Below are positions 2,839 to 29,760 of a stretch of 30,440 nucleotides of DNA, piece by piece. The first letter of the stretch is position 1; every line of letters starts with the position of its first letter. The DNA is from Paraburkholderia sp. FT54 (GTDB lineage: Bacteria > Pseudomonadota > Gammaproteobacteria > Burkholderiales > Burkholderiaceae). The notes under the pieces were generated by a model. The model was given only the letters and a program-made list of their open reading frames with translations, made no database searches and had not been told where the DNA came from. Position numbers and translations under genes: made by a program. The DNA lies in the NCBI RefSeq assembly GCF_031585635.1, contig NZ_CP134199.1, positions 1 to 30,440 of the forward strand, given 5' to 3'.

Positions 2839-3621
2839 ATGACCGGACAGCAGACGAAAACAGGTTTACGCCGGCTATCAATGCTGGAGAGGATGGAGGA
2901 GGCGGCCCGGCAGGCATGGCTAGAAAACGAACGGACGCGTCACGAAGGGTTCGTGCAGGCGCTGCGGGATCCCAGCCGCGCTGCCGGCACGATTGTTCAC
3001 GCCTGTCGGGAGGTCGACCGGTGGGACAGCGACACGACCCGCACGGTCGAGGAGATCGCCAGTTGGCGTGCGGTGCTTTCACTTCCAGCTGAAGACATTG
3101 CAGCGCTACTGGACGAGCCGTCGCATCCGTTGCTGCAAAAACGGGATCATGAAAGCCCTTTCCGGGAACCGGACCATCCAGAGAGTGACGCCTTCCAGCA
3201 GGAGATGCTGGACCGGCGACTCAAGATCGGAGACGCAAAACGATTCCGTGACATGCTCAAAGAAAAGCGACAATTGTCGCTTGTCAGACAGTCCAAACAG
3301 CGCTATCGTTCGCTGATGAACCATCCCGATTTACCACATCCAGGTGAGTACATTCGCCAGCAATGTCTGGAGCGCTTTGAACTGTCGGTCACGGAAGGCG
3401 CCCGCGTGCTGGGTGTCAGCCGGCAGGCGCTGACTAACCTGGTCACCGGCAAAGCTGGCATTTCACCTGAAATGGCGCTACGGCTTGATCTGGCATTCGG
3501 TGGCGGTGCAGAAACCTGGCTTCAGCGGCAACTGCTGCATGATCTCGCGCAGGCGCGCAGGCGGCTGGCCGAACTGGATGTCGTGCCGGTTACCTCGGAG
3601 CGGCAACCGGCGCTTTTCTAG
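2839..3621 (+). CDS. Protein with HigA-like C-terminal HTH domain and unknown N-terminal domain
   Basis: 260 residues, GGAG upstream of ATG. Residues about 165-245 match the HigA/VapI antitoxin fold: HPGEYIRQQCLERFELSVTE, then VSRQALTNLVTGKAGISPEM, then GGGAETWLQRQLLHDLAQAR. A normal HigA is about 100 residues. Here about 160 extra N-terminal residues precede it, mostly charged helices (LERMEEAARQAWLENERTRH; RFRDMLKEKRQLSLVRQSKQ), with no family I recognise. No HigB-like gene is adjacent. It could be a fused or repurposed antitoxin acting as a regulator or DNA-binding scaffold. It heads a co-oriented group with the zinc-ribbon and exonuclease-like genes. Confidence 0.7.
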   Translation: MTGQQTKTGLRRLSMLERMEEAARQAWLENERTRHEGFVQALRDPSRAAGTIVHACREVDRWDSDTTRTVEEIASWRAVLSLPAEDIAALLDEPSHPLLQKRDHESPFREPDHPESDAFQQEMLDRRLKIGDAKRFRDMLKEKRQLSLVRQSKQRYRSLMNHPDLPHPGEYIRQQCLERFELSVTEGARVLGVSRQALTNLVTGKAGISPEMALRLDLAFGGGAETWLQRQLLHDLAQARRRLAELDVVPVTSERQPALF

Positions 3622-3906: not shown

Positions 3907-4416
3907 ATGGAAAAAATAACGACCATAGCGGCAATGGGCAGAAACCGGGGACCACGTAGTCCATGGAAAACCCGCTATTTCCTTGATACCGAGTTCACGG
4001 ATTTCGATACCTTCCAGCTCATCAGCGTGGCGATTGTGGGGGAGGACGGGCGCGAGTTCTACGGCGAGTCTGCGGACTTTGAGCGCCCGCTATGCAGTGA
4101 TTTTGTGCGGGAGGTCGTGCTGCCCCAGCTCGGCCAGTTCCCGGGCCGGTCGATGCCGGTCGCCCAACTGCGCGATGAGCTGCGGACGTGGCTGCTGGCT
4201 GTGCCAGTCAAGCCCAAGCCGGTGTTGTGCTACGACTTTCAGGGCGATTTTGAACTTGTCGGCCATCTGCTGGGCGGTCCGCTGCCACGCGGCTGGAAGG
4301 ATGAAAACGTGGCCCAACGGATCGACGCGCAACGTTTCACCGAGTACATCGCAGAGCACGGCGGAGAACATCACGCGTTGCATGATGCCCGCGCGAATGC
4401 ATTCGCTTTTCGCTAG
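3907..4416 (+). CDS. DEDDh-family 3'-5' exonuclease-like protein
   Basis: 169 residues. YFLDTEFTDFDTFQLISVAI (about residues 25-44) is the Exo I motif with Asp and Glu. CYDFQGDFELVGHLL (about 115) supplies the second Asp. EHHALHDARANAFAF (about 153) gives the H-x4-D Exo III motif. This is an RNase H-fold exonuclease signature, closest in feel to the small Rv2179c-like exoribonucleases. The protein ends soon after Exo III, so the C-terminus may be slightly short. The substrate (RNA or DNA) is unknown. Confidence 0.7.
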   Translation: MEKITTIAAMGRNRGPRSPWKTRYFLDTEFTDFDTFQLISVAIVGEDGREFYGESADFERPLCSDFVREVVLPQLGQFPGRSMPVAQLRDELRTWLLAVPVKPKPVLCYDFQGDFELVGHLLGGPLPRGWKDENVAQRIDAQRFTEYIAEHGGEHHALHDARANAFAFR

Positions 4417-4515: not shown

Positions 4516-4554
4516 CGCAGGGGTCTCGGGCTCGACCCTGAGTCATCCAGTTAT

Positions 4555-4600
4555 GTATGGGCAAACTTCAGTTTGTACGTAGATCACGGATCCTGACGGA
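4555..4600 (+). other. Second oriT-like element, inverted relative to 1981-2024
   Basis: GCAAACTTCAGTTTGTACGT (4561-4580) is the reverse complement of the core at 2001-2016 and beyond. Its GTACGT is followed by exactly nine bases and then ATCCTG (4590-4595), as in the first copy. The base before ATCCTG is G, not the Y of the MOBP consensus, and the left arm is degraded (GTATGGGCAAACT), so it may be inactive. Further along, CTCAACGCC (minus strand near 4635) and GTTGCCGAA (4674-4696) also match the first copy in order. Confidence 0.55.
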
Positions 4601-4861: not shown

Positions 4862-5209
4862 TCAATCGTCTCCAGACAGCAGTTCTATGGCCTCCCGAAT
4901 CAATTTAAGGGCAGTGTCGACGTTGCGTGTCATTGGGTCGGCTCGCTCGGCAAGCGCGAGGTAAGCGAAATGGACTGAGGAAGAGTGCTTGGCCAGCGCC
5001 ACCAGGTGCGGGCCGCTGGGACCTCGAACCGCCGAAAGCCAATTCTGCACCGTCCGCTGGCTCGCACCGGTCCACCGTTCCAAGGTCTTTATCATCCGCC
5101 GCGAATCCCCGAAGTCTTTCTGAAGTGCCAGAGCAATGGCGAGCGGATACTCCGCACCTAACTCCTCGGGCTGTTCGCCGTGCAATTGCTTGCTTGTTTT
5201 GGGCAACAT
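4862..5209 (-). CDS. Small HTH regulator divergent from the recombinase operon
   Basis: 115 residues, GGAGG upstream of ATG at 5209-5207. Residues about 35-75 (RRMIKTLERWTGASQRTVQN, then WLSAVRGPSGPHLVALAKHS) look like a helix-turn-helix of the kind annotated as DNA-binding protein next to serine recombinase genes; that association is from memory. The C-terminus is helical (TALKLIREAIELLSG). It is divergent from the serine recombinase with 99 bases between starts, so the likely role is control of the recombinase operon and itself. A plausible leftward -10 (TATAGG) is at 5233-5228. Confidence 0.65.
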   Translation of the reverse strand: MLPKTSKQLHGEQPEELGAEYPLAIALALQKDFGDSRRMIKTLERWTGASQRTVQNWLSAVRGPSGPHLVALAKHSSSVHFAYLALAERADPMTRNVDTALKLIREAIELLSGDD

Positions 5210-5308
5210 TTTTCCATCCTCCGAACCTATATTTTCCGGGAGCGCGAATAGAACACGTCGCGCACTGTTTCTGCGCGGCCCGCCAATCGGCGATCCATGG
5301 GAGGCGGG

Positions 5309-6880
5309 ATGAGCCGGTCAAAACGCAAGGACGATCCGGAATCAGCTGATGCGCGGCCACGAGCCGCCGCATACGTGCGAATGTCGACGGAGCATCAACA
5401 GTATTCGACCGAAAATCAGCGAGACGTGATCGCGGCCTTTGCGGAATCTCGGAATTACGAGCTTGTGCGCACGTACGCAGATGAAGGGAAAAGTGGGCTT
5501 CGACTCGAAGGGCGTGAAGCTCTGAAAGCGTTGCTCCGTGACGTCGAGTCCGGCACGGCGGATTTTTCAATGGTCCTGGTCTACGATGTCAGCCGCTGGG
5601 GCCGCTTCCAGGATCCAGACGAAAGTGCCAGCTATGAAATCAGGTGTAAGCACGCGGGTGTTCGCGTGCTGTACTGCGCCGAGCAATTTGAGAACGACGG
5701 CAGTCCAGTCTCCAGCATCATTAAAAGCCTAAAGAGAAGCATGGCGGGCGAATACAGCCGGGAGCTGGGCGTTAAAGTCCATGCGGGTCAAAGCCGGCTT
5801 ATCCGTTGCGGCTATCGCCAGGGAGGACCGGCCGGCTATGGCTTGCGCCGCTTTCTGATTGATCAGGCTGGAACGGTCAAGGACGAACTGCATCGCGGAC
5901 AACACAAGTCGATTCAAACCGACCGGGTCATCCTTGCTCCTGGGCCCGAAGAAGAAGTGGTCGTGGTGCGCGGCATCTATCGGCAGTTCGTCGAAGAGGG
6001 GCGCACCGAATCCGAAATCGCGATGGCGCTTAATGAAGACGGCCTGCGGACCGACCGAGGGTCGCCATGGACGCGCGGCACGGTTCATCAGATCCTGATC
6101 AACGAAAAATACGTCGGCGACAACGTGTGGAACCGGACCTCGTTCAAGCTCAAACAGGAGCGGGTCAGAAATCCGCCTGCTTCCTGGGTCCGCGCCGAGC
6201 GCGTGTTCACTCCTGTAGTCGATCGACTGATGTTCGAGGCCGCCCGGCAAATGATTCTGGCGCGCTCCTATCGCCTTAGCGACGGCGAGATGCTCGACGT
6301 GCTTCGGAAACTGCTTTTGCGCAACGGCTACCTGTCCGGGATCGTGATCGACGAGGCGCCGGCATGCCCGTCCAGCAGCGCATACGCGAGTCGCTTCGGC
6401 AGCTTGCTGCGCACGTACGATCTGATCGGCTACGCGCCTGACAGGGATTATCGATACGTCGAAATCAATCGGAGGTTGCGCGAACTGCATCCGGAAGTAG
6501 TCGGCCAGGCGGTGCAGGCGATGGCGGAGACGGGTGCCCGCGTGGATCGCGAGGAGGAGACGGGGCTTCTGTGGGTGAATGAGGAGTTTCGCGTTTCGCT
6601 TGCGCTGTCGCGATGTCGGCCCACCGAGGCCGGAACCAACCGCTGGATCGTCCGCTTCGACAACGCCCTGCGGCCGGACATCACCATCGCTGTGCGAATG
6701 GAGTTCGACGCGCTCTCCATTCGCGACTATTTCCTGTTGCCGGCGATCGACGTCCGCTCGGACTTTGTTCGGCTTGGCGACTACAACGACCACGGGTTCG
6801 AAGCCTATCGTTTCGAAGACCTTTCCATGCTCGTCCATCTGGCGCGCAGGGTTCCTTTAAAGGGAGTCGCGTATGAATGA
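5309..6880 (+). CDS. Large serine recombinase (resolvase plus recombinase domain, no zinc ribbon)
   Basis: 523 residues using ATG at 5309, which has GGGAGG four to five bases upstream; an in-frame ATG at 5297 lies inside that site and is less likely. The resolvase domain has AAYVRMSTEHQQYSTENQ with the catalytic Ser near residue 26, and VSRWGR with the conserved arginines near 96-99. A recombinase domain follows at about 170-290 (GGPAGYGLRR; NEDGLRTDRGSPWTRGTVHQ; NEKYVGDNVWNR). The C-terminal 200 residues (LRNGYLSGIVIDEAPACPSS, GSLLRTYDLIGYAPDRDYRY) lack the Cys4 zinc ribbon and coiled coil of phage integrases. The end overlaps the next gene by eight bases. It should cut and rejoin DNA by a 5'-phosphoserine link; the target site is unknown. 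Confidence 0.88.
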   Translation: MSRSKRKDDPESADARPRAAAYVRMSTEHQQYSTENQRDVIAAFAESRNYELVRTYADEGKSGLRLEGREALKALLRDVESGTADFSMVLVYDVSRWGRFQDPDESASYEIRCKHAGVRVLYCAEQFENDGSPVSSIIKSLKRSMAGEYSRELGVKVHAGQSRLIRCGYRQGGPAGYGLRRFLIDQAGTVKDELHRGQHKSIQTDRVILAPGPEEEVVVVRGIYRQFVEEGRTESEIAMALNEDGLRTDRGSPWTRGTVHQILINEKYVGDNVWNRTSFKLKQERVRNPPASWVRAERVFTPVVDRLMFEAARQMILARSYRLSDGEMLDVLRKLLLRNGYLSGIVIDEAPACPSSSAYASRFGSLLRTYDLIGYAPDRDYRYVEINRRLRELHPEVVGQAVQAMAETGARVDREEETGLLWVNEEFRVSLALSRCRPTEAGTNRWIVRFDNALRPDITIAVRMEFDALSIRDYFLLPAIDVRSDFVRLGDYNDHGFEAYRFEDLSMLVHLARRVPLKGVAYE

Positions 6881-7790
6881 CCGAATCGACAAATCGACCG
6901 CGACGCTCATGCGCAGCGATGAGGTGTCCCTGATCCCTGTATGCCAGTTGCGTGTACTCAATCCGCGAACGCGCAATCCGTACCTGTTCGCGCAGCTGGT
7001 GGAGAACATCGCGACAATTGGCCTAAAAAGACCTATAACAGTCGCCTACGGCGGCCGCGATGACTCAGGCGTCTGGCATGAAGTACTGTGCGGGCAGGGG
7101 CGCCTCGAAGCGTTGAAGGCGTTGGGCGAGGAGATGATCCCCTGCTGCGTCGTTGAAGCTGACCAGATTGAGCGTTTCCTGATTACGCTCGCGGAAAACC
7201 TGGCGAGGCGGCGGCACACCACGGAGGAATTGCTAAGTGGCCTCCAGGTGCTTCGATCCAAAGGCTACAGTACAGAGCAGATCGCGCGAAAAACAAACCT
7301 GGACCCGAGCTACATAAATGGAATTTTGCATCTGCTCGACAACGGTGAGCAGCGATTGCTCAGGGCGGTCGAAAGGAAGGTAGTCCCGATGTGGCTCGCT
7401 ATGGATATTGCGCGTTCGTCAAGCGAAGAGGTTCAGGTGGCGATGGTATCCGCATACGAGCAAGGCACGTTGAAAGGCGAACAGCTCATGCGAGTCCGGA
7501 AGATTATCAGCATGCGCGATGCCGTCGGCAAAGCGTTCCATTCCAAGAAGCCACAGCCCAAGGACAAGCCGACTCCCCAGAAGCTGTTGAAGACGTATCA
7601 AACGGAGGTTCGCCGCAAAAAGATGGTGGTCCAGAACGCCAGAATCCAGGAGCAGCGGCTGCTAATTATCACGTCTGCCTTGAAGAAATTTCTCGGGGAC
7701 GAGCATTTTCGAACTTTGCTTCGCGCCGAAAACGTTCGAGACATTCCCGAAGCCGTCGCGAGCCGCATTCCTCCGGAGCTGTTGCCATGA
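6873..7790 (+). CDS. ParB-domain protein, first of two in the recombinase operon
   Basis: 305 residues; AAAGGGAG lies upstream and the ATG overlaps the recombinase stop by eight bases. The ParB-like N-terminal domain spans about 15-115 (VSLIPVCQLRVLNPRTRNPY; CGQGRLEALKALGE near 74-86; LAENLARRRHTTEEL). A helix-turn-helix lies near 125-155 (GYSTEQIARKTNLDPSYING). The C-terminal third is basic and helical. In chromosomal ParB the CTP-binding box is GERRxRA; here it is GQGRLEA, as in other ParB-superfamily branches. It is not next to parA (20 kb away), so it probably serves the recombinase rather than partition. The stop overlaps the next start (ATGA). Confidence 0.8.
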   Translation: MNDRIDKSTATLMRSDEVSLIPVCQLRVLNPRTRNPYLFAQLVENIATIGLKRPITVAYGGRDDSGVWHEVLCGQGRLEALKALGEEMIPCCVVEADQIERFLITLAENLARRRHTTEELLSGLQVLRSKGYSTEQIARKTNLDPSYINGILHLLDNGEQRLLRAVERKVVPMWLAMDIARSSSEEVQVAMVSAYEQGTLKGEQLMRVRKIISMRDAVGKAFHSKKPQPKDKPTPQKLLKTYQTEVRRKKMVVQNARIQEQRLLIITSALKKFLGDEHFRTLLRAENVRDIPEAVASRIPPELLP

Positions 7791-8686
7791 CCATCGTCAA
7801 ACACGGTTTCGAGCCACAAATCATCGAAGTGCCTGTGGGGCTCATCAAGCCTGGCGCCCCCCTCTCTTCGACTGTCCTGTCCACCCCTAAATATCGCACG
7901 ATTCTCAGCTCGATCGGAGAGTTGGGAATCATTGAGCCACTCGCGGTCTATCGTTCAAATCGCCGTGATGGCGAATACGACTTGCTGGACGGGCGCCTCC
8001 GGTTGGAAGCCCTTAAGCAGTTGGGACGAGAAGTGGCGCCATGCATGATTTCGACAGACGACGAGGGCTTCACGTTCAACCGCCAGGTCAACCGTACCAC
8101 CGCTGTGCAGGAGCATCGGATGATTCGTGCAACGCTTGCGAAAGGCGCGTCCGAACAGCGGATCGCCGAGGTTCTGCGAATGGACGTGCGTCGCATCCGT
8201 GAACGCGCGCACCTGCTCGATGGCATTGCGCCAGAGGCGGCAGCCTTGCTGAAAGACCGGCAGGTCGCACCGGCAATTTTTTCAATTCTGAGAAAGATGA
8301 AACCGTTCCGGCAAATCGAGGCGGCGGAAATGATGATCGCATCCAACCGGTTCAGCGCCACCTACGCGGAAATGATCCTGGTCACGACCCGGCCAGACGC
8401 TCTGACGGACAAGGCGAAGCCTAAAAAAAAGGTAGATGTATCGCCAGAGGAGCTAGCCCGGATGGAGGCTGAGATGGAGCGCCTGCGGCAAGACTGTCAG
8501 ACGGTCGAGGACACGGTCGGCGACACTATGCTTTCGCTTGTTGTAGCGAAAGGTTTCATGAGCCGGCTGCTGCGCAACGAGAACATCCACGGACATCTGA
8601 AGCGCCACCACAAGGATTCGCTTGCCAGCGTCGTCGCGACCATGGAGGCGATCGCCGCCGACAGCCGCATGCCAGATCGGGAATGA
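7787..8686 (+). CDS. RepB-type ParB-like protein, second in the recombinase operon
   Basis: 299 residues, ATG at 7787 overlapping the previous TGA. The N-terminal ParB-like domain has FEPQIIEVPVGLIKPGAPL and LLDGRLRLEALKQLGREVAP (about 66-85). A helix-turn-helix lies near 115-142 (LAKGASEQRIAEVLRMDVRR). The C-terminal half resembles the RepB partition C-terminal domain (ILRKMKPFRQIEAAEMMIAS; SATYAEMILVTTRP; LSLVVAKGFMSRLLRNENIH). It is distantly related to the preceding gene product but clearly a separate branch. Two different ParB-like proteins coupled to one recombinase suggests they bind or slide on the recombination site. No parA homologue is in the operon. Confidence 0.8.
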   Translation: MTIVKHGFEPQIIEVPVGLIKPGAPLSSTVLSTPKYRTILSSIGELGIIEPLAVYRSNRRDGEYDLLDGRLRLEALKQLGREVAPCMISTDDEGFTFNRQVNRTTAVQEHRMIRATLAKGASEQRIAEVLRMDVRRIRERAHLLDGIAPEAAALLKDRQVAPAIFSILRKMKPFRQIEAAEMMIASNRFSATYAEMILVTTRPDALTDKAKPKKKVDVSPEELARMEAEMERLRQDCQTVEDTVGDTMLSLVVAKGFMSRLLRNENIHGHLKRHHKDSLASVVATMEAIAADSRMPDRE

Positions 8687-8728
8687 CGTCGGATCACAGG
8701 TGTTATGTCAATCACGCGCCGGCCGGGT

Positions 8729-9742
8729 TCACTCGAATCCTTCAAGTCGCAGCGAGTCCCCTTTTCTAGGGAAGGCTCGATCCAACATGCCGGTGAACTG
8801 CGTCCAGTTATCGCATGCCCGCATCAGGCCAGTGACGGCATGAATGTGTTCGCTCAAAGCCGGGTGGCCAACATCCTCCGAGAGCCATTGATGATGCTTA
8901 GCGGCACGCCGGCCAGACTCGTTCTTGGGATTACGCGTCTCAAGTTCTTGGACGAGGCCTGGAGCTAATCGGTCATACACGATGTCCATCGTGTATTTTC
9001 CAACAACGCCTGGCTTGCCTCCCGAAACGGTTGGGTATGGCCACTCCCGAAGCCGAAACATCTCTTTATAGAACGAGTCAGGGAATCTCTTCGCCCATTT
9101 GGCAAATTCTTGAAGAAGATACTTGTCCAGCAGTGCAGCAAGCGCTTTTTTATCACGGACCTCTTGGTAGCCTGTGGCTTCGTCGACGAGGGCAACGATA
9201 CCCACGCTCGCAAGCGCTCGCACCAGCATGTCTGCGCGCTCTGCGATGTGTTTCTGACTAGGTAACAGAGCACCCTCGTCGCGTGCCGCCAGATAGACCC
9301 TGCAGACCTCCGGAAGCATTTCCGCCGGATACCCGAGTACGCGCGCGCCGCTAGGCGTTACGAATTCGATGGGAGCGGTCGCTTGAGATAGCTCGCGCTC
9401 CACAAACGACTGCAGATTGGACGCAGCGATAAACGGGGGCAACTTATCGACGGCCGTTCGGACGCCTTGGCCGCCCTTCGCCTTTGCTGCGCGTCCGATG
9501 CTGGTAAGAAAACTTTCTTGCGTCAGCACACGGCGACCGTCATCAAGCACATAACAGTCAATTTGAATTCCGCCAATCATCAGCGGTGATTCACCAGATC
9601 CAAACTGTGCCTGGGGCAGGCCGTGCTCCTTGGCCCAGCGCTTTCCTGCGGCCTGTTTTGCGATCGCAGAGCGATCTTCGGGACTCAGTGAACTCGCGCG
9701 AGCCTTCGCTGCCGCCTGCTTTTTTACATCCTTCGGTTCCAT
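8729..9742 (-). CDS. P63C domain protein
   Basis: 337 residues from the ATG at 9742-9740, which has GGAGG eight bases upstream; longer in-frame extensions lack a site. The N-terminus is a lysine/alanine-rich helix (KDVKKQAAAKARASSLSPED). The P63C domain occupies about 150-290 with AEMLPEVCRVYLAARDEGAL, ALLDKYLLQEFAKWAKRFPD, FYKEMFRLREWPYP, GKYTMDIVYDRLAPGLVQEL and KHHQWLSEDVGHPALSEHIH. P63C proteins occur in phages, plasmids and islands and have no established biochemical role that I know of. The gene converges on the recombinase operon and is divergent from the winged-helix gene at 9999. The shared promoter region carries repeated GCAAGCAT sites. Confidence 0.85.
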   Translation of the reverse strand: MEPKDVKKQAAAKARASSLSPEDRSAIAKQAAGKRWAKEHGLPQAQFGSGESPLMIGGIQIDCYVLDDGRRVLTQESFLTSIGRAAKAKGGQGVRTAVDKLPPFIAASNLQSFVERELSQATAPIEFVTPSGARVLGYPAEMLPEVCRVYLAARDEGALLPSQKHIAERADMLVRALASVGIVALVDEATGYQEVRDKKALAALLDKYLLQEFAKWAKRFPDSFYKEMFRLREWPYPTVSGGKPGVVGKYTMDIVYDRLAPGLVQELETRNPKNESGRRAAKHHQWLSEDVGHPALSEHIHAVTGLMRACDNWTQFTGMLDRAFPRKGDSLRLEGFE

Positions 9743-9757
9743 GCGAAAGCCTCCGTT

Positions 9758-9821
9758 CATGCTTGCATTAAAATCTGTGCAAGCATACATGCTTACACAG
9801 ACATTTTGCAAGCATGTATGC
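9758..9821. promoter_or_regulatory. GCAAGCAT operator cluster upstream of the P63C gene
   Basis: Three copies of an eight-base word occur: ATGCTTGC (9759-9766), GCAAGCAT (9779-9786, inside the near-palindrome GCAAGCATACATGCTT) and GCAAGCAT (9808-9815, followed by GTATGC). Alternating orientation and 20-30 base spacing suggest a cooperative repressor. Farther right, 9895-9950 has two GAAGCGTC copies and an AT-rich stretch. Confidence 0.5.
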
Positions 9822-9998
9822 GAAATCGCAACCTGTCCGAAACGACGGCACAACAGACAGCCTCGCAACCCGGTGCGACGCCTGCCGTATCACGACTTTG
9901 AAGCGTCAAACGAAGCGTCGCACCAAAAAAAGCGACGTTTTTGTCGTTAATAAATAGAAGAATAGATTTTAACTTTGTAAGCGTGTAAAGTTCGGTTC

Positions 9999-10655: not shown

Positions 10656-11615
10656 GTGAACAAGCCCATTTCCCATTCACCTGGCATTTCCGAGTCGAGT
10701 TTGGCACGCGCCGTGCCGACGCCGCCGACTATTCCTCCGGTGGAGGCAACCGATGAAGCGCCGGCCGAGAAAGCTGCGCCACCGGTAACGGAGCAGCAAT
10801 TGACGGCGGCTATGCGCGCCCTTTCCCAGCCTCGACTCGATTCGTACCGCAGCTTCTTCCGAATGCAAAAGGAGGTGGCTCCGACAGACGAGGAATTGAT
10901 AGGCGCCTATTTCTGGGGGCAGGCGATTGCAAGCGCGTTACAACCTTTGGTCTCCACCTACGAGGTTGTGCTGCGAAACGCCATTCACGAGCGTGCCTCC
11001 ATGCTCTCTTCCGGGCAGACGAGCACGTCACACCCTTGGTATGACCATACCAGGACGGACAGCCTCCTCACCAAGGGTAAGAGCCGCGAAAAAGTTATCG
11101 AACTGCTCTACCAACCATCGAATGGAGCAGGGATGCCGATGAGGCGGGCGGTACAGCCGCTACCGGATCAGGTTGTCGCGTCGCTCTCGTTCGGTTTCTG
11201 GCCTGCTTTCCTGAACGATCTGCCACCGATTCAACGGTCCCAGATACTGGCTGAGGTCTTTCCCCATTACCCCAAGGGAAGTCGGAAACACTGGAGCTTC
11301 CCCGACAACGTGAATCAGCTCATCCAAGTACTCAAGGACATTCAGGATCTGCGCAATCGGATAGCACACCACGAACCCATTTGGAAACCCCACCGTCTCA
11401 CGCGTACGGAGCGTCACTGGTGGAATTCTGTGCAAAGCATTCAGAACAAGCATCGCGAGATCGTCGACGTGCTGGGATGGTGCTGCACTGATAGCGCCGT
11501 GCTGTACAAGGCAGGCTTCGGCCGGCGCATGTTCAACGAGTTGTGCACGACACACGCTGTTAAAAAGTTTATGGCAAGCCCGTTTTCAGCTGGCACGATC
11601 ACCCCGTTCAACTGA
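10656..11615 (+). CDS. Abi_2-family (HEPN) abortive infection protein
   Basis: 319 residues from GTG at 10656. The first 50 residues are Pro/Ala-rich and poorly conserved in look. The Abi_2 domain spans about 57-300 with LSQPRLDSYRSFFRMQKEV, LIGAYFWGQAIASALQPLVS, YEVVLRNAIHER, VASLSFGFWPAFL and LRNRIAHHEPIW. The last is the HEPN RxxxxH motif (about residues 233-238) found in AbiD/AbiF-type proteins and thought to be an RNase active site. It stands alone between terminators and on the opposite strand from its downstream neighbours. It is likely a single-gene phage-defence factor; no antitoxin partner is visible. Confidence 0.85.
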   Translation: MNKPISHSPGISESSLARAVPTPPTIPPVEATDEAPAEKAAPPVTEQQLTAAMRALSQPRLDSYRSFFRMQKEVAPTDEELIGAYFWGQAIASALQPLVSTYEVVLRNAIHERASMLSSGQTSTSHPWYDHTRTDSLLTKGKSREKVIELLYQPSNGAGMPMRRAVQPLPDQVVASLSFGFWPAFLNDLPPIQRSQILAEVFPHYPKGSRKHWSFPDNVNQLIQVLKDIQDLRNRIAHHEPIWKPHRLTRTERHWWNSVQSIQNKHREIVDVLGWCCTDSAVLYKAGFGRRMFNELCTTHAVKKFMASPFSAGTITPFN

Positions 11616-17506: not shown

Positions 17507-20500
17507 TCAGTCTTCTTGATCCGCCTCAGCGGCAGACGACTCTGCTTGACGTAGTACGAGCTGAGTCGCATCTTCTGACAGGTCCGGCGGATATCCGTAC
17601 TTGGCGAGCAACCGGCGCACGGTTCTCCGCAAACCAGCCCGCACCGATTCACGCTGCGTCCAATCTAGCTTGGGCATTTTCTTTACCATCTCCGTCAGTT
17701 CCCGCGCCATGAGCCGAAGCGTGTCGCTCTTCATAACATCTTTGGCCGAGCCATTTTCCGCCAAAGCGTCGTAGAACGCGGCCTCCTCAGTACTTATGCC
17801 GAGCTCCTCGCCATGTCGCTGAGCCTCACGCATGAATTTCGCCAAGTCTATGAGCCGCGAAATCATCTCGGCTGTCGTGATCGCCTTGTTGGTATAGCGC
17901 AACATAGCGTCTTCGAGCGCTTCACGAAATTTCTTACTTTGAACAATATTCGTTCGCTCAGTGACACGAATTTGATCGGCTAGCAGCTTGCGCAACGTCT
18001 CCAACGCCAGGTTCTTTTGCTCAAGCGCGGCAACCCGCTGCAGGAATTCGTCGCTAAGAATATCGAGTCGCGCCGTGTCGAGTCCTGCAGCCGCAAATAG
18101 ATCGATGACCTGATCTGCGCGGACGGCTGCGCCGATGACCTGTCGGACGGCAGCATCCACGTCGCGCTGACGCGCTGTCGCGGCGCCGCCCGGCTCATCC
18201 GCCAGTCGCTTACGGATCATGGCGGCGACACGCTGGAAAAACGCCAAATGCTGGACCACTGTTTCCGTCTCGACGCGGGGCACTGCCAAAGCGAAGGCCG
18301 CTGATAACTCTTTTACGAGCGCGCGCAAGCGCTGCCAACCGTCCAGCTGCGCAAAAACATGGTCCACCGCGGCTAGATACACCCGCAACGCCATCTGTGG
18401 CTCGGCATCGAGGGCGCCTTCGTAATCACAGCCATGAAAAAAATCGCGCAACTTTTCGAACGCGGCCTGCATGGCTGGCACGGCCTCGTCCTGCACCTGT
18501 TTAACCGCCTCGCCAGTGCCGCCAGCTCGGGTGTAGATAGCCAGCGCGTCCGCCAGCTGGTCCGCGAGGCCCAGCAGGTCCACGATCAAGCCACCGGGCT
18601 TTTCCCCATGCACACGGTTAACTCTGGCGATGGCCTGCATTAGGTTGTGACCGGCTAGGGGTTTGTCCAAATACATCGTGTGCGCAGGGGGGCAGTCAAA
18701 GCCTGTCAGCCACATATCGCACACGATCGCCAGTCGGAAGCCGTCATCCGGATTTTTGAACCGCTCCGCCAGTCGCTTACGTGCGGCCTTGCTGCGGATA
18801 TGACTGCGCAACGGCTCAATGTCGTCGTTCTCGCCGGACACAATGACCTTCATCGCTCCACGGTCGTCGTCGGAATCATGCCACTCAGGTCGCAGGGTTT
18901 TGATCGCCTCGTACAGTCGCGCGGCGATCTCCCGACTCATGGTCACGATCATCGCCTTGCCTTCCATCGCGGCGCGGCGCTTTTCCCAATGATCGACGAT
19001 AAACGCAGCCGTCCGCTCAAGTCGCTCTGGCGCGCCAACCAACGCTTCCAGTGGGATGCGAATCTGATCAACGACTTCCTCGCCTGCCGCATTAGCCTCG
19101 GCGGCCTGCTCCAGTTCAGCTTCGGCTGCAGCCGCGCCCGCGTTGTCAACTGTCAGCTTGACGATGCACGATTCGTAATACAGCGGTTTAGTCGCCCCAT
19201 CATCTACTGCCTGACGAATGTCGTACACATCCACATACTCGCCGAAGACATGAATGGTATTTTTGTCGTCGCGCTCCAGCGGAGTGCCAGTAAACCCGAG
19301 AAAGGTTGCGTTTGGCAGTGCGACGCGCATCCAACGCGCGCCACCTTCAATGAAGCCGTATTGGCTGCGATGTGCCTCGTCCGCTATCACCAGCACATTC
19401 GCTCGGTCCGAGATTCTGCCGTGGGCCTCGGCGAACTTCTGAACTGTAGTAAACACCACTCCACCGGAGGCACGATCCAGCAGTGCTTTCAGACGATCCC
19501 TGCTTTCCGCTTGTACCGGGGCCTGCCGCAGCAGCGCACGGCCTGCAGCGAAAGTACCGAAGAGTTGGTCGTCAAGATCGTTGCGATCTGTGACCACAAC
19601 GATGGTTGGGTTCGCCATTACCGGTTCGCGAACGAGGGCACCGGCCAACATAAGCATGGTCAACGACTTGCCAGAACCTTGGGTGTGCCAGACCACACCG
19701 CCGCGGCCATCACCTACGCCGAGAGGCGGTTTTAGATTCGCAAGCACGCTGTCACACGCCTTGCGCACCGCGCGGAACTGATGATAGCCGGCGATCTTCT
19801 TAGCGATCTCGCCGCGTTCGTCTTCCTCGAAGACAACACATGTCCGCAGGTAGTACAGCAGCAGCGAAGGCTCAAACAGCCCACGAATGAGCGCCTCCAA
19901 TGTTGGCTTGCCGCCTTGGGCTGGACGCCAAGGTGCGAAGCGGCTCGGACCACTGGTAACGGAGCCGACGCGGGTCAAGAGACCATCGGAGGCGACTAGC
20001 AGAAGGTTGGACACAAACAGGTCGGGCGCACACTGCACGTAGCGCCCAAGCTGGTCGATCGCCGCATTCAAATTTGCGTTGGGATCCGTCGGATCCTTCA
20101 GCTCAATCACTGCGACCGGCAGGCCGTTAAGAAATACGGTCAAATCTGGGCGGATAATTTTTCCCGAAGACGCAGCGACGGTCAGTTGCCGCACTACTAT
20201 CAGATCGTTCTGCCGGGGATTATCAAAATCCACTAGCCGCGCCCGTCCACCGCGAGTTTCGCCGCTCGCACTGTCGCGGTACTCTACCTCCACCCCGTCG
20301 ATCAGTAATGTCTGGAACCAGCGGTTATTCTGTATGAACGTCGGGTGGGGCGGCCGAGCTAGGGTGCGGACGACTTGTTCGCACACCTCGTGAGGCAACG
20401 TTGAATTCAGTCGATGGAGCCCCGCACTAATTCTCCCTTGAAGAATGCACTGTGATGCATCGCTTCGCTCGCCAGCCTTATCGAGGTCAGAGCCGCTCTT

Positions 20501-20578
20501 GGTCACAAAGCCAAGTGCGCCAAAGTAGGCCGTGGCGACATCCTCAACTAGGCGTTCGGTTGGTGAGTTCATCGTCAT
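17507..20578 (-). CDS. hsdR: Type I restriction enzyme R subunit
   Basis: 1023 residues, a usual length for HsdR. A PD-(D/E)xK nuclease motif spans IIRPDLTVFLNGLPVAVIEL followed by K (about residues 142-160). Walker A is VWHTQGSGKSLTML (about 298-308). The DEAH box is VIADEAHRSQYGF (about 400). Later helicase motifs include TFLGFTGTPL and MWLTGFDCPPAHTMYLDKPL. This subunit translocates and cuts unmodified DNA together with HsdM and HsdS. Its start codon overlaps the stop of the preceding Abi_C-type gene (ATGA). It is the last gene of the four-gene minus-strand operon. Confidence 0.95.
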   Translation of the reverse strand: MTMNSPTERLVEDVATAYFGALGFVTKSGSDLDKAGERSDASQCILQGRISAGLHRLNSTLPHEVCEQVVRTLARPPHPTFIQNNRWFQTLLIDGVEVEYRDSASGETRGGRARLVDFDNPRQNDLIVVRQLTVAASSGKIIRPDLTVFLNGLPVAVIELKDPTDPNANLNAAIDQLGRYVQCAPDLFVSNLLLVASDGLLTRVGSVTSGPSRFAPWRPAQGGKPTLEALIRGLFEPSLLLYYLRTCVVFEEDERGEIAKKIAGYHQFRAVRKACDSVLANLKPPLGVGDGRGGVVWHTQGSGKSLTMLMLAGALVREPVMANPTIVVVTDRNDLDDQLFGTFAAGRALLRQAPVQAESRDRLKALLDRASGGVVFTTVQKFAEAHGRISDRANVLVIADEAHRSQYGFIEGGARWMRVALPNATFLGFTGTPLERDDKNTIHVFGEYVDVYDIRQAVDDGATKPLYYESCIVKLTVDNAGAAAAEAELEQAAEANAAGEEVVDQIRIPLEALVGAPERLERTAAFIVDHWEKRRAAMEGKAMIVTMSREIAARLYEAIKTLRPEWHDSDDDRGAMKVIVSGENDDIEPLRSHIRSKAARKRLAERFKNPDDGFRLAIVCDMWLTGFDCPPAHTMYLDKPLAGHNLMQAIARVNRVHGEKPGGLIVDLLGLADQLADALAIYTRAGGTGEAVKQVQDEAVPAMQAAFEKLRDFFHGCDYEGALDAEPQMALRVYLAAVDHVFAQLDGWQRLRALVKELSAAFALAVPRVETETVVQHLAFFQRVAAMIRKRLADEPGGAATARQRDVDAAVRQVIGAAVRADQVIDLFAAAGLDTARLDILSDEFLQRVAALEQKNLALETLRKLLADQIRVTERTNIVQSKKFREALEDAMLRYTNKAITTAEMISRLIDLAKFMREAQRHGEELGISTEEAAFYDALAENGSAKDVMKSDTLRLMARELTEMVKKMPKLDWTQRESVRAGLRRTVRRLLAKYGYPPDLSEDATQLVLRQAESSAAEADQED

Positions 20579-21297
20579 TCCGATGCCCCGTTCGCATTGT
20601 CGCCGCCGCCGTTCATTCCATCTCGCTCGGCAATGAACTCGTTCAATGCTGTCTTGTACGCCTCACCGTCTGCGTGGAACAGTACGCGACTTGGCAGCAA
20701 CTCCAGTCGGCCGAATCTGACGACCTCATAATCGCGATCGAAAGCATCATTAAAATCCGCATGATCTTCATAGTAAACGCGTGCACCAGGAGCCTGAATC
20801 AATGCGTCGCGGTGAATGCGGTATAGGAATGACACGATGGTATCCGCAGCCTGAGCCGCAAGCGTGGCCTGTCGGAGGTCGAGCCTGGCGGTATAGCTAT
20901 CCCGCCCATGTGACGCCATCCCGTAGTTGTTCCGGAGTTCGCAGAGTCCTTGGATTGTCTGCAATAGCCCGCGTATCGTCTTCTCGACGGATTCACGTGC
21001 CTTTTGCGGATCTGGGTGGCTGCGAGGAAGGAGAGACAGCCGATTAGTTGTCTCGCGCAATAACTTTGGGGCATCCCAGTTGGGATCGGCAGGCTGGCCG
21101 ATATCGGCAAGGACGGTCTTGCACACCGATTCGACCAACGTCTTTGAAAGATCAAATGCGAAGTCGGGCACACTCTCTAGTGTGCTTTCGATCGCATTGA
21201 TCTGTTGCTCGATCGCCTCTGCAACGGGGCCATCCGCAAGTGCTGCGCGAGCACCAACCATCTGAAAGCGCAACTGGACCATCGAGGATTCAGCCAT
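20575..21297 (-). CDS. Abi_C (abortive infection C-terminal) protein inserted in the R-M operon
   Basis: 240 residues from ATG at 21297, overlapping the hsdS stop by eight bases; the stop overlaps the hsdR start by four. Residues about 60-150 match the Abi_C pattern: LADIGQPADPNWDAPKLLRE, EKTIRGLLQTIQGLCELRNN, YGMASHGRDSYTARL, TIVSFLYRIH. RNNYGMASH has a HEPN-like R-x-n-H arrangement. The overlaps show it is an integral part of the operon, not a chance insertion. It may back up restriction with cell shutdown, which is an inference. Confidence 0.85.
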   Translation of the reverse strand: MAESSMVQLRFQMVGARAALADGPVAEAIEQQINAIESTLESVPDFAFDLSKTLVESVCKTVLADIGQPADPNWDAPKLLRETTNRLSLLPRSHPDPQKARESVEKTIRGLLQTIQGLCELRNNYGMASHGRDSYTARLDLRQATLAAQAADTIVSFLYRIHRDALIQAPGARVYYEDHADFNDAFDRDYEVVRFGRLELLPSRVLFHADGEAYKTALNEFIAERDGMNGGGDNANGASE

Positions 21298-22492
21298 CGA
21301 CGGCCTCGACGCGCGCACTACCACTCAATAGTCGAGGCAGTAAGTAGTCACGGAGCTCCTCTAGCTTTCGAGTCTCCATTTCGGACGCCTCGATCAAATC
21401 GTCTAGAGGCCGCACCAGATCCTCGAACGCTTTGGCAATATCGTCCACAGGCTCAAGGAAGGGCATATTGGCGAGAAACTGTTTTGTAACTGCCTTAAAG
21501 ATTGTGCCATCGCCGATTGCGTCCTCCTCGGCGAATACGTGCCCTAGTTGATGCAACAGAAACGACTGGGAGCCATGACGGTGACGTATCCCCGCCAAGC
21601 CGCGACCTAACACTAGGCGACGATCGGCGACGTTGATACGTCCCACGGGTGCGCGTACCGAGAGAAGAATATCGTGTGGCTCGGCAAGTCTACCGTCAGT
21701 GGCGCAATAGACGCGGTGACTTGGAAAGCGGAAGCCGTAGTCGGTGACACCTTGATGGAATGGCAGTCCATTACCTTCCTGGTTGTAGAACTCAGATGAT
21801 GGCGACTGGCCCATCGTCAGATGAACTATTTGCTCAAGCGGCTTCACTCCCCAACTTTCCGGTATAGGACCGATTTTGGAGGCGACGAGGCGAGTCGGCA
21901 ATGCATCAAAGACGTGCTGAGGCATAGAAGGAAACGATGTGCCACCAGAGGCTCTTACCTTGACGGGCTCGAAATCCACAAACCACGCGCGGAAAATCGC
22001 CCGTGCCAAGCGTTCCAACGCCCGCACGGTGCGGCCGTTTTGATCGATTTTTTCATCCAAAGCGCTGAGTGTCTTGCCGATGGCCTCCTGCGTCGTTAGA
22101 CGATGCGGCCAGACAATTTCTATCGGATGAACATGATTACGATTGAGGGTTGGATTTGCTGAACCAACATCCATTCCAGCAAGCCGAGTGGCCATCATTC
22201 GGAAAAAATAGTAAACGAATCGCGGGTCATTCCCCTTGAAGTCCTTCACCCAGAGCGTTGTGTCATGCGGCCAATAATCCGCTGCCACATAGTAAACGCT
22301 TCCTACGACTCCTTTCCGACCAAGCACCACTCCCGGACCAACGGCCGTCGACGTGTCGTGATAGCTGGACACCCCCCCGGATGAGACCACAGGCACAGAA
22401 CCCTGACGCTGAGTGGCCTTTGTGATATCGAAGCCACGTTGCAGGGTTAGTTGTTCTCCTATGGTGGTGCGAATCCACCCGTCAGGAAGCAT
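21290..22492 (-). CDS. hsdS: Type I restriction enzyme S (specificity) subunit
   Basis: 400 residues, two target-recognition domains. The first runs from [20 protein letters not shown] to [20 protein letters not shown] and is followed by a conserved helical spacer ([20 protein letters not shown]). The second starts at [20 protein letters not shown] and ends with [20 protein letters not shown]. It sets the bipartite DNA sequence the enzyme recognises. It starts 11 bases inside the end of hsdM. Confidence 0.93.
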
Positions 22493-24152
22493 TTGTCACC
22501 TTGTTCAGTTGTGCTCGGATCACAGCGGTAAGTTGTTCGGAAGTGGCAAAGTGCCTGTCCAGCTCTTCCAGCAAACGCGAGTACTTCTCCGCGAACGGCT
22601 CGCCGTCATTCTGCTGCTCCTCTGCACCTACGTAACGGCTGGGAGTAAGGACAAAGCCATGCTTTTTGATTTCCTCGATGTTAGCGGCGTTGCAGAAACC
22701 AGGGATGTCGGAGTAGGACCACGTGCCGTGCTGTGCTTCATCCCACCACTCGGGCCTCTTCTCGCCACGCCATTGGCGGAACGCATAGATGATGCGCCCG
22801 ATATCAGTATCAGGTTTCGGGTCACCTTGCCCGCCAGCCATCAGCGTTTCACCATCTTCGCCGCCGCTAAGCACGCGCAGCGTACGTGTCTCCATGCTGC
22901 CGAGTTTGCGAGCGTCGATGAATAGTGTTTCGCTCGTGCGGTCGCGACCGCCGTACTTGAGATTGCGACCGCTCTTGTCACGGGTCACGAACCACAGACA
23001 TACGGGGATGCCAGTGGTGAAGAATAACTGCGTCGGCAGGGCCACGATGCAGTCCACTAGGTCAGCCTCGACGATGCGCTTGCGGATCTCTCCTTCACCG
23101 CCGACATTGCTAGAAAGCGAGCCGTTAGCCATGACGAAGCCCGCAACACCACCACCGTGGCCATTGGGCGGGGCAATGTGGTGTATGAAATGCTGAATCC
23201 AAGCGTAGTTGGCGTTTCCCGACGGCGGTGTGCCATAGCGCCATCGCACATCATCTTGCAGTAACTTGCCGGACCAATCGGAAACGTTGAACGGTGGATT
23301 GGCTAGGATATAGTCGGCTTTCAGGTCCGGGTGCAAGTCACGAAGGAAGGTGTCGGCCGGCTGCGAGCCAAGGTTGGCTTCAATGGACCGGATGGCGAGA
23401 TTCATATGCGCCAGCCGCCAAGTGGTCGGATTGGACTCTTGACCAAAGATGGAGATATCGGTCTTGTTGCCGCCGTGCGCTTCGACAAAACTTTCGGACT
23501 GCACGAACATGCCGCCGGAGCCGCAGCACGGATCATAGACACGCCCCTCGTAAGGTTCGATCATCTCGACCAACACCCGCACTACACAGCGTGGTGTAAA
23601 AAACTCACCACCCAGCTTTCCCTCGGCTTGGGCGAACTTCCCGAGAAAGTACTCGTAGACTCGACCAAGGGTATCGCGCGCCTTGGCGCGGTCGCCCTTG
23701 AAGCCTATGTCTGCGATGAGCTCGATTAGTCCCTTCAGTTTTACCGGCTCGATACCACGGCGAGCATAGTCGCGTGGGAGCTTGTTCTTGAGATTCGGGT
23801 TGTCGCGCTCGACGACGAGGATCGCGTCGTCAATCAGTGTGGCGATATCGGGGCGCGTGGCTTGGTTCTGGAGGTTAACCCAGCGCGCCTCCGGCGGCAC
23901 CCAGAATACTCGTTCAGCGGTGTATTCATCACGATTTTCGAGTAGTGCCTCCTGCTGCGCCCCAGTGATGCCTTCGGCCACAAGCTCATCCTTGAGCTCC
24001 TCGCGCCGTGCTTCAAATGAGTCGGATATGTATTTCAAGAACAATAAGCCAAGCACAACATGCTTGTATTCAGCGGCATCAACTTGTCCGCGCAAAGTGT
24101 CAGCGGATTTCCAAAGTGTGTCTGTGTAGGCGACTTCGTTGTTGTTGGCCAT
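22482..24152 (-). CDS. hsdM: Type I restriction enzyme M (methyltransferase) subunit
   Basis: 556 residues from [20 protein letters not shown]; longer upstream starts lack support. The N-terminal HsdM domain is followed by the SAM-binding motif [17 protein letters not shown] (about 206-222) and the adenine-N6 catalytic motif [15 protein letters not shown] (about 279-293). It methylates the host site and, with HsdS, forms the modification complex. First gene of the operon; TATAAT-like -10 elements lie at about 24241-24246 on the minus strand. Confidence 0.95.
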
Positions 24153-24419
24153 GTGTGCAACTTTTGCCCTGTGCTCGTAGTGGATGGCAGCCGCCCGGGT
24201 CACCACGCAGGGCTGAGCGGACTGGTCCTATAATCCTCGAATTATATCGGCATCTCGTCATATGCTTTGCGTGGCGTCGCGTGACGCCAAGAGCTCCACG
24301 CCATTTTGAGTCGTCGACGCTCTAGGAACGGCACAAGGACAATCTTGTCCCTCGCGTCGGGCAAATGGTGGGGCCTGCTGTCTGAAAAGCTCGCCAAAAG
24401 CCCAGTTGCCTGAAGGCGT

Positions 24420-24988: not shown

Positions 24989-25064
24989 GGGGGGATAGCT
25001 CAGATGGGAGAGCGCGGCGTTCGCAACGCCGAGGTCGGGAGTTCGATCCTCCTTCCCTCCACCA
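24989..25064 (+). tRNA. tRNA-Ala, anticodon CGC
   Basis: All arms fold. The acceptor GGGGGGA pairs with TCCCTCC (one GU). The D arm is GCTC/GAGC and the anticodon stem is CGGCG/CGCCG, around loop TTCGCAA with anticodon CGC. The variable loop is five bases, the T loop is TTCGATC, and CCA is encoded (25062-25064). The gene is 76 bases. CGC reads the alanine codon GCG, abundant in this GC-rich DNA. A -10-like TACAAT lies about 20 bases upstream. Scored by eye, not by tRNAscan-SE. Confidence 0.92.
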
Positions 25065-26829: not shown

Positions 26830-26847
26830 GGTGTACAAATCCCCGGT
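26830..26847 (-). repeat. Lone inverted iteron at the 3' end of rep
   Basis: GGTGTACAAATCCCCGGT (26830-26847) matches the reverse complement of the iteron at 27887-27904 with one mismatch. It touches the rep stop codon (26849-26847). The main iteron set lies upstream of rep. Confidence 0.6.
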
Positions 26848-27599
26848 CAGAAGGCGAGAGCCATTTGCTCATTCGGGCGAAACCTGAAGCGCAACCCTAC
26901 GACCTTGCGACCGTTTTTTGTCGGCGTCCAATCGACGATCAGGCCGTTCTTTTCGCTCAATTCTTTGACGGCCGGATCGATGACGCGGCGGCGCAGCTCC
27001 TTGAAGTTCGTCCGGTAGTTCTGTGGCGCGTCCATCGCGTGTTCAAACTCTTCGAGAGTGGGTTCCCATTTGCCAGCCCCGTTCCAGCTTTTCAAGTTCT
27101 CGAATAGGCGCCACGAATAAACACTGCGCAGCGCAGCCGCGTGCTTCAACTTGTATGTCGTGAATTCCTGCCGCAAGCAGAACAGGTATGGGCGCACGTC
27201 GGGGTGCCAAGTGATTGTCACGGTCCCCTGCCCCTTCGAGTACTTAGCCCGCAACAGCCACGCATGCTTGATTTCGTCCCCTTTCCGGTCCCGATCAGGC
27301 CGCACAATCAGTTTCGTCAACAGCTTGTCGGCGCCGTCCTGTAGCTGCTCATAGGCTGTATCCAAGCTGATATCAAAGGTCTCCGCATACTCCATGGCAG
27401 ACAGCTTCACGGTCCAGAATTTTTCCTCAGTCAACGCGCGGCCGTCCGTCGTATCACTCGCCGCGAGCCCAGCGGCGATCATTCGCTTCTCGGAGAGGTT
27501 TAGGTTGTGTGAGGCGCGGACGATGATATTCGCCATCGTCACCTGTCGATCGGCAATCGCCGTTTGGCTGTTAGGCTTGGCTGTGAGGGTCTTCGTCAT
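26847..27599 (-). CDS. Rep_3-family (RepB/RepA) replication initiator
   Basis: 250 residues. Start ATG at 27599-27597 with poor ribosome binding site. Two winged-helix domains of the Rep_3 type: NIIVRASHNLNLSEKRMIAA and VKLSAMEYAETFDISLDTAY in the first; RQEFTTYKLKHAAALRSVYS, WRLFENLK and ELRRRVIDPAVKELSEKNGL, then WTPTKNGRKVVGLRFRFRP, in the second. It binds the upstream iterons as monomer to start replication and, as dimer, the inverted iteron halves to repress itself. That mode is known for the family. Confidence 0.93.
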   Translation of the reverse strand: MTKTLTAKPNSQTAIADRQVTMANIIVRASHNLNLSEKRMIAAGLAASDTTDGRALTEEKFWTVKLSAMEYAETFDISLDTAYEQLQDGADKLLTKLIVRPDRDRKGDEIKHAWLLRAKYSKGQGTVTITWHPDVRPYLFCLRQEFTTYKLKHAAALRSVYSWRLFENLKSWNGAGKWEPTLEEFEHAMDAPQNYRTNFKELRRRVIDPAVKELSEKNGLIVDWTPTKNGRKVVGLRFRFRPNEQMALAF

Positions 27600-28449: not shown

Positions 28450-28504
28450 AAATAGATAGCTGGCTGGTGCCAGTGTCACAGTGGACGAAAAAGGAAGAAC
28501 TCGA

Positions 28505-29188
28505 ATGCCCACTATCGTTTTTGTTAGCCCGAAGGGCGGCGCCGGCAAAACCACTTCGGCGCTTGTGCTTGCAGAGCAAATCGCGCGCTCGGTGCCCGTC
28601 ACGGTCATCGACGCGGATCCGAACCATCCCATCAAGACATGGGCGGGCGGCCCGAACACCCCGACGAATCTGACCGTCGTTTCGAACGCCGACGAAGAGA
28701 ACATGATCGACGTGATCGAGGAGGCGGCCTCACGCACGCCGTTCGTCCTCGTCGACCTCGAGGGCACTGCCGCGAAGATCGTGCTGTTGGCCGTCAGTCA
28801 GGCCGATCTCGTGATCGTTCCGACACAGGGGTCGCAGCTGGACGCCGCGCAGGCGTCGCGCGCTCTGCGTGTGATCAAACAGCAAGAGAAAATGTCTCGG
28901 CGAGCCGTGCCGTACGGGGTGCTCATCACGCGCACTAACCCGGTCATCCGCACGCGCACGACGTCGCATCTGGCGAACGCTTTCCGCGAGGCCAGCATCA
29001 ACTTGTTCGAGACTGAGCTCCATGAGCGCGAGGCGTTCAAGGCGCTTTTTGCCTTCAATCAGCCGCTGTCCCACCTGGATCCGAAAGACGTCAGCAACGT
29101 CGACAAGGCTGTGGCGAACGCTGAGGCATACGCGAACGAGGTGATTGATCTGCTGCGCCGCGCGAGCCAGCCGCAGGAGGCCGCATGA
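28505..29188 (+). CDS. parA: ParA-family partition ATPase
   Basis: 227 residues from ATG at 28505, with AAGGAAG seven bases upstream; a GTG at 28481 is unlikely. The deviant Walker A motif SPKGGAGKTTSALVLAE is at residues 8-24. VTVIDADPNHP (about 38-48) and VLVDLEGTA (about 84) follow. No N-terminal HTH is present, so this is a small type Ib ParA such as those that pair with ParG-like partners. It positions plasmid copies over the nucleoid. It overlaps the next gene by four bases. Confidence 0.93.
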   Translation: MPTIVFVSPKGGAGKTTSALVLAEQIARSVPVTVIDADPNHPIKTWAGGPNTPTNLTVVSNADEENMIDVIEEAASRTPFVLVDLEGTAAKIVLLAVSQADLVIVPTQGSQLDAAQASRALRVIKQQEKMSRRAVPYGVLITRTNPVIRTRTTSHLANAFREASINLFETELHEREAFKALFAFNQPLSHLDPKDVSNVDKAVANAEAYANEVIDLLRRASQPQEAA

Positions 29189-29526: not shown

Positions 29527-29760
29527 GGAACTTGTGGGGCACCAAATAGGTACCAAGCCGGTATCCGACAGATATCTCGCGGTCCAAAAGGGCAGTGCGT
29601 TCGAGCCGCGCCCCTAGCGTGCTGTCTCCCCGGATGGCCCGCCAGGCCATTCTCCCCTTATGTCGTTTGGGGAGCGCCTGGAGCCCGGCACCTGCAACGC
29701 TGCATGGATTTTAGTTAGGGTTTATACTAATCCCGTCTCCTCCATGTCTCCACATGGATT
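29527..29760. other. Post-partition intergenic region with possible small RNA promoter
   Basis: Centromere-like words lie at 29540-29557. CTCCCC...GGGGAG arms are near 29652-29675. A good -10 (TATACT, 29723-29728) with a poor -35 lies upstream of a 6-base hairpin (29742-29757: CCATGT/ACATGG) and then the terminator at 29761-29790. A transcript of about 55 bases with two stem-loops could arise. This is a hypothesis. Confidence 0.35.

Follow-up and report, generated by a model that had tools for sequence, protein, structure and literature searches.

A large serine recombinase encoded with two ParB-like proteins in a probably self-mobile, SCC-like unit

Integrons are built on a tyrosine recombinase, IntI, with attI and attC sites. 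In SCC and ECC elements, one or more large serine recombinases insert units at short att sites, which stand as direct repeats, and the cargo is varied and includes restriction genes, as set out in the main text of one account (PMC6222049). The term ParB is absent from that main text, and both ParB and RepB are absent from the main text of a survey of large serine recombinases (PMC10083194). A literature search covering titles and the opening parts of abstracts, with subscription papers and preprints outside its scope, found no description of a serine recombinase with two ParB/RepB-like partners.

Such a combination is encoded in the stretch of DNA analyzed here (30,440 nucleotides, termed the window), which is apparently a whole 30.4-kb plasmid and forms one contig (C5) of a five-contig genome of 8.65 Mb. 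The recombinase (REC) and its two partners (RB1 and RB2) lie on the plus strand behind a small divergent gene. The unit is delimited by comparison with L046, the nearest copy with flanking DNA that was compared, which lies on a contig of 916 kb in another species. Its features are the following.

4862..5209, minus strand: small divergent gene, an open reading frame of 115 amino acids whose stop codon is the left end of the shared unit
5210..5296, no strand: divergent intergenic region, a possible shared promoter/operator; a block is seen in alignment and the function is presumed
5297..6880, plus strand: REC, large serine recombinase, 527 amino acids, from Pfam and PDB matches
6873..7790, plus strand: RB1, ParB/RepB-like, 305 amino acids, from Pfam and an AlphaFold model
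7787..8686, plus strand: RB2, second ParB/RepB-like protein, 299 amino acids, from Pfam and a PDB profile match
4862..8699, plus strand: whole shared unit, the stretch in common with L046
8687..8702, no strand: right junction; similarity to L046 runs up to 8699 and similarity to a Caballeronia plasmid starts at 8702

A preliminary description of this DNA had placed four genes at 4862-8686, and both these coordinates and the overlaps it gave, of 8 bases between REC and RB1 (6873-6880) and of 4 bases between RB1 and RB2 (7787-7790), are correct. The list of open reading frames includes a longer GTG start for RB2 at 7391; the ATG at 7787 agrees with aligned homologues. Within the divergent intergenic region, a block reading CAACATTTTTC...CCTCC-AAACTATATT is visible in 11 of 12 aligned window-clade loci. 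The 115-residue gene has an 82% identical homologue in the same position in L046, and other loci of the window clade hold divergent homologues. Its earlier label of helix-turn-helix regulator is plausible but weak, as the helix-turn-helix matches of the protein and of two of four relatives are all sub-threshold and no Pfam family is matched at E ≤ 0.001; the protein is a possible helix-turn-helix regulator of the unit.

REC joins a Resolvase catalytic domain (PF00239, E = 5.8e-21), with its serine, to a Recombinase domain (PF07508, E = 8.8e-22), the composition of a large serine recombinase. Searches against the PDB match 3guv (9.9e-12), TP901-1 integrase (4.1e-7), and TnpX (2.8e-4). Ser30 of REC, within YVRMST, aligns with a serine of TP901-1 integrase that we take to be the catalytic one, and is the presumed catalytic serine of REC. 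The large serine integrases phiC31, Bxb1, TP901-1, and TnpX thus resemble REC in their PF00239 and PF07508 core and, for the latter two, in direct structure-database matches. They differ from it in that REC has no detected zinc ribbon and stands in constant partnership with RB1 and RB2. About 200 residues follow the two domains, and no zinc ribbon is detected there. The description of the recombinase as lacking a zinc ribbon agrees with the Pfam matches, which include no zinc-ribbon family at E ≤ 0.001, a threshold that a divergent zinc ribbon would escape.

Both partners match PF07506, RB1 at 57.4 bits and RB2 at 118.7 bits. RB1 also matches TIGR00180 at 35.9 bits, under the cut-off of 58.45, and RB2 matches the ParB N-terminal family PF02195 at 23.3 bits, under the cut-off of 26.3. 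Profiles of RB1 and RB2 match Noc (7ol9) at 2.5e-10 and 4.4e-8, respectively. RB1 retains GQGR and ENLARR where Noc and ParB have GERR and ENLQR, motifs that we take to be like ParB boxes II and III, the CTP boxes. RB2 retains DGxxR and is without the second box (EN..R). The AlphaFold model of RB1 (pLDDT 76.8, pTM 0.41) matches structures of Noc, ParB, and KorB, and its CTP pocket is judged from the motifs together with this medium-confidence model. RB1 and RB2 are thereby linked to the ParB/Noc/KorB CTP-switch family, both by sequence matches to Noc and Spo0J and RB1 also by fold. They differ from that family in having a PF07506 C-terminal part, in lacking an adjoining ParA, and in being encoded with a recombinase; RB2 differs further in the missing EN..R box. 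All three plus-strand genes are under purifying selection, with dN/dS between the window and L046 of 0.043 for REC, 0.042 for RB1, and 0.037 for RB2.

The preliminary description had proposed a search for conserved co-occurrence, and co-occurrence is what is found. The order REC-RB1-RB2 is kept in 80 of 80 genome loci (the best 80 of 562 confirmed stretches, all selected by RB1, a sample that cannot show REC occurring without RB1 and RB2). The third gene was counted if it matched RB2 or RB1. The same order is present in 65 of 75 loci from viral contigs; a contig end truncates the remaining 10, so that all 65 untruncated loci have it. Among the first 25 loci, all found via RB1, 24 carry the three genes in order, three of them twice; the exception is L052, in which REC is opposed to RB1-RB2 (5435-8806). 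Pairwise distances among 100 module copies correlate at 0.82 for REC and RB1, 0.82 for REC and RB2, and 0.93 for RB1 and RB2, with at most 0.11 in 500 permutations. By this comparison, the triad has a conserved order and a correlated divergence. Of 299 genomes of the family, 38 contain RB1 at E ≤ 1e-10. The window's own genome has three REC homologues, one of them without RB1 and RB2 behind it, and this host also carries a second, diverged module on another contig (G000:C3:429631-435450, L045), with an extra REC homologue in front. A prophage integrase, the first impression given by the viral contigs, was rejected: RB2 is matched by one phage record, and the collection that yielded the 75 viral loci comprises 2.9 million contigs.

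The module behaves as a mobile unit. The window and L046 have 4862-8699 as their only common stretch of at least 300 bp and more than 75% identity (81% over 3,846 columns); closer RB1 relatives, up to 96%, occur in metagenome contigs. Plasmid p2 of Caballeronia SL2Y3 has no module, and its similarity to the window starts at 8702. Genome G306 matches the right flank of L046 up to the end of the unit and has no module within the 18 kb examined there. In several clades, similarity between related copies ends within about 20 bp of the RB2 end; for a Pseudomonas clade the end lies past RB2 at about +680, for a Comamonadaceae clade at about +1,460, and for an alphaproteobacterial clade at +135 to +150. 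At least three module pairs (L007/L082, L116/L117, and L201/L203) have flanks in common, as would be expected of copies at one place. These comparisons show the same unit, with sharp bounds, in unrelated contexts, and the mobile cassette that had been listed among the options is supported by the sharp ends, the unrelated flanks of L046, and the module-less Caballeronia plasmid.

A homologous four-gene unit of 3.88 kb is carried by the Agrobacterium plasmid pAtC58 (L008 5944-9825), with 58, 42, and 39% identity to the window for REC, RB1, and RB2. Three plasmid loci without the unit match C58 up to L008 bases 5943, 5945, and 5931; other records stop matching earlier, six of them at 4728. Plasmid pAt1D1460 has only 5922-9825 in common with L008, located elsewhere. 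The unit is bounded by direct copies of a site of about 18 bp (CTTGANNGGANTYGAACC), with the left flank and the unit's right end each terminating in the GAACC site. Copies resembling YTTGAANGGNATYGAACC are present on both the left flank and the unit end in three insertions from Agrobacterium and Rhizobium. We take the GAACC site to resemble the antisense T-arm of a tRNA. In pAtCFBP5877a, the same left flank is followed by an 889-bp vapBC segment that terminates in the site, and related vapBC segments occur in other contexts with breaks at sites.

Comparison shows this putative recombination site at both unit ends and at many segment boundaries in Agrobacterium. A test of 11 loci placed 31 of their 38 boundaries no more than 30 bp from a site, where 0.76 are expected; some of these sites had also seeded the site matrix. 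A second test used 51 stretches around the sites of nine plasmids. Two of the stretches share DNA with earlier loci (L289 and L239, 2.5 kb; L318 and L236, 0.5 kb), and the others share none. Of the 79 block boundaries here, 28 fall no more than 30 bp from a site (shuffled mean 1.4, maximum 6) and 51 fall farther away; for distinct boundaries, the count is 24 of 63 (shuffled mean 1.2). Offsets cluster at −18/−19 and 0 from the GAACC end, which correspond to the first base of the site and the position just after GAACC. The site is dispersed over the plasmids and confined to a single strand in six of the nine, with forward/reverse counts of 0/23, 7/0, 3/12, 11/10, 1/1, 0/13, 0/10, 0/11, and 0/5. 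All 23 copies in pAtC58 are on one strand. Reversed-pattern controls give 0-2 per strand across the nine plasmids and 1 per strand in pAtC58. In CP039899 and pAt1D1460, which have sites on both strands, the strand switches once along the map; the strand bias is perhaps tied to replication direction.

The unit is nearest to SCC and ECC elements (CcrAB, CcrC), with which it shares a large serine recombinase; direct-repeat sites at both ends are seen in three Agrobacterium/Rhizobium copies, and such repeats were not found for the window. The best NCBIfam matches of REC are to CcrB (60 bits) and CcrC (35 bits), far under their cut-offs of 900, and CcrA is matched at 19 bits against a cut-off of 700, so that REC is none of these proteins by cut-off. 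The module differs from SCC and ECC elements in pairing one recombinase with two ParB-like proteins, not CcrA with CcrB, and in having sites dispersed over plasmids, not one attB. It recalls integrons in that segments of one or a few genes (toxin-antitoxin, Fic) lie between like-oriented sites, whether or not the plasmid carries the recombinase. Unlike IntI with attI and attC, REC is of the serine type and the site is about 18 bp; the recombinase also lies inside a segment, and the sites extend over hundreds of kilobases.

Repeat or target-site boundaries had also been suggested as something to look for, and the outcome is divided: the Agrobacterium units are bounded by a site, but no direct repeat between left flank and right end was found for the window, in a test that also missed the known repeat of L008 because its site lay beyond the range searched on the right. 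A search for the Agrobacterium site at the ends of the window's unit was negative; in the window clade, the 3' end of RB2 gives a consistent weak match, which conserved coding can explain. A de novo search for boundary motifs in 35 loci, mostly Burkholderiales, gave one clear motif, a Comamonadaceae 9-mer. The window's right flank has short matches only in 144 genomes of the genus, its own genome excepted, and next to RB2 tandem repeats show no enrichment (22 of 167 versus 17 of 167). An rRNA-operon target was considered for four modules of one genus, whose common left flank we take to be the end of an rRNA operon, and was rejected because the break there looks like ordinary divergence; only one of the four, L057, has tRNA-Ile/Ala. 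A 1.2-kb insert in L059 reads by eye as an IS3-type element.

We regard the unit as a self-mobile, SCC-like site-specific recombination unit in which synapsis or site choice is controlled by the ParB-like pair, and give this reading a probability of about 0.6. Its mobility and sites are supported by comparison of sequences. REC would cut and join DNA at the short sites at both unit ends and at like sites elsewhere, so that the unit and other site-bounded segments could be inserted, excised, or exchanged. REC probably acts at sites of the Agrobacterium type, and the window's unit would use a clade-specific site of the same kind. RB1 and RB2, made together with REC, may bind the sites or DNA close to them; RB1 is probably a CTP-dependent clamp in the manner of ParB, Noc, and KorB, and RB2 would be its partner, with a nucleotide pocket that is degenerate. 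The pair would take the place of the zinc-ribbon/coiled-coil part that ordinary large serine integrases have and that is missing here, and would choose, pair, or orient sites, and the divergent small protein may repress the operon. A ParB-guided recombination complex, one of the options in the preliminary description, is still the best mechanism, although the roles of RB1 and RB2 and of a CTP switch are what we infer.

A bolder form of this proposal is put forward tentatively, with the odds against it. The serine recombinase would leave both the choice of sites and their synapsis to two ParB-like clamps, with RB1 loading, sliding, or bridging in a CTP-dependent manner, and only like-oriented sites would be paired, on one DNA or on co-resident plasmids. 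Integron- or SCC-like traffic of segments between dispersed, strand-biased sites would then build mosaic plasmids, and a structured element of about 120 nt at the unit end in some alphaproteobacterial clades may be a further RNA or DNA component. Together these parts would make a new class of system.

The most serious rival, although unlikely, holds that the module is a passenger, that a second enzyme such as a tyrosine recombinase moves the site-bounded segments, and that REC, RB1, and RB2 do something else. RB1 is present in only two of the nine site-bearing plasmids (pAtC58 and pAt1D1460, in a search of the nine plasmids themselves), a count that weakens the main reading and strengthens this rival; the seven without an RB1 match include those with vapBC and Fic segments. 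Tyrosine integrases also lie near some modules, with Phage_integrase in 3 of 101 neighbors scanned. Against the rival, the bounded unit holds a recombinase and no other recombination gene, its ends are sharp in several clades, and cells whose plasmids lack RB1 may carry modules on other replicons. The seven plasmids either contain relics of past exchange or are served from another replicon or by another enzyme. A local DNA-inversion switch is improbable as an alternative to a mobile unit. A segment of about 640 bp is inverted upstream of REC in L058 (6365-7103), REC is opposed to RB1-RB2 in L052, and the ends of Pseudomonas units look inverted, but the inversion is one case among five near-identical group-B copies compared, the units lie in unrelated contexts, and the Agrobacterium sites are direct repeats. 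The two cases in L058 and L052 are local rearrangements near modules.

A part in defense, exclusion, or competition, with RB1 and RB2 loading on foreign DNA that REC destroys or rearranges, had also been suggested and is similarly improbable. Fic (5 of 101 module neighbors scanned), HipA, AbiEii-type AAA, and restriction genes occur among the neighbors, and the window plasmid bears PD-T4-5-like and type I restriction genes. However, the only PADLOC match among the four proteins is a weak one, of RB1 to a type II methyltransferase (E = 0.0011), defense genes occur in the more distant comparison set too, and unit boundaries and sites point to mobility. The neighbor scan covered 101 of 141 near and 58 of 95 far open reading frames, thinned by hand, and is not a clean control, so no enrichment is claimed; defense-like neighbors are as expected for cargo of mobile DNA. 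Least probable, and very much so, are partition or incompatibility genes of another replicon accompanied by a resolvase, as the name of the PF07506 domains ("RepB plasmid partitioning") might suggest. RB1 and RB2 do have the N-terminal ParB/CTP domain of ParABS systems, judging from the Noc and Spo0J profile matches and the RB1 fold, but no parA lies next to them. As had been noted earlier, no ParA adjoins the module in the window, and by annotation none stands beside the triad in five further plasmid loci. The plasmid has its own ParA/VirC1-type gene (28481-29188) and Rep3 initiator gene (26847-27599) elsewhere, so the RB1/RB2 pair is not its partition system, in agreement with the earlier view that these are not ordinary partition genes. 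The triad is also present on megabase-sized contigs, and the bounded unit is independent of a replicon.

If the reading as a self-mobile recombination unit holds, a widespread family now named plasmid partition proteins would be the accessory half of a site-specific recombination machine, and the ParB CTP switch would be linked to recombination. The short site would explain part of the mosaicism of Agrobacterium and Rhizobium plasmids. As tools for DNA engineering, recombinases whose targeting partners are separable could also be studied.

Several further elements accompany modules of other clades. In the alphaproteobacterial clade, a conserved, apparently structured element of about 125 nt (L149:11786-11922, L130:9913-10049, L185:11793-11929, and 22 more loci) follows the RB2 match at a distance of 12-69 bp (707 bp in a single locus). 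It has double-sided compensatory changes in 8 of 26 predicted pairs and no Rfam match in the loci tested. Its use as a multi-copy cassette site was rejected, given one strong copy in eight of ten records (one also with a weak second); in one record, G412, the copy lies outside the module stretch examined. Comamonadaceae-type units terminate in tandem 9-bp repeats (NATTTCGCT, about 2-6 copies), with a further copy about 53 bp inside, for example at L117:13142-13220, L156:10444-10549, and L064:5858-5936. Across 29 loci, this repeat gives 37 matches, which partly overlap and are spread over 17 of the loci, and the reversed pattern gives none; some of the single matches are probably chance. The repeats are possible iterons for the ParB-like proteins. 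Pseudomonas units start with GCTWTCGACCCAAAGC and finish with GCTATGGGTCGATA (L084:7709 and 12406; L007:5710 and 10406), which are opposite orientations of a like palindromic motif.

Elsewhere in the window, a 24-nt inverted repeat (2000-2023 and 4554-4577, 92%) surrounds a HigA-like antitoxin gene (2839-3621) and an RNase AS-like gene (3907-4416), and this segment is possibly another small mobile unit. A PD-T4-5/Abi_2-like gene lies at 10656-11615, and type I restriction genes (R, S, and M), with an Abi_C gene between them, occupy 17507-24206. A tRNA gene is located at 24989-25061, and positions 29734-29791 match a Betaproteobacteria toxic small RNA (RF02278).
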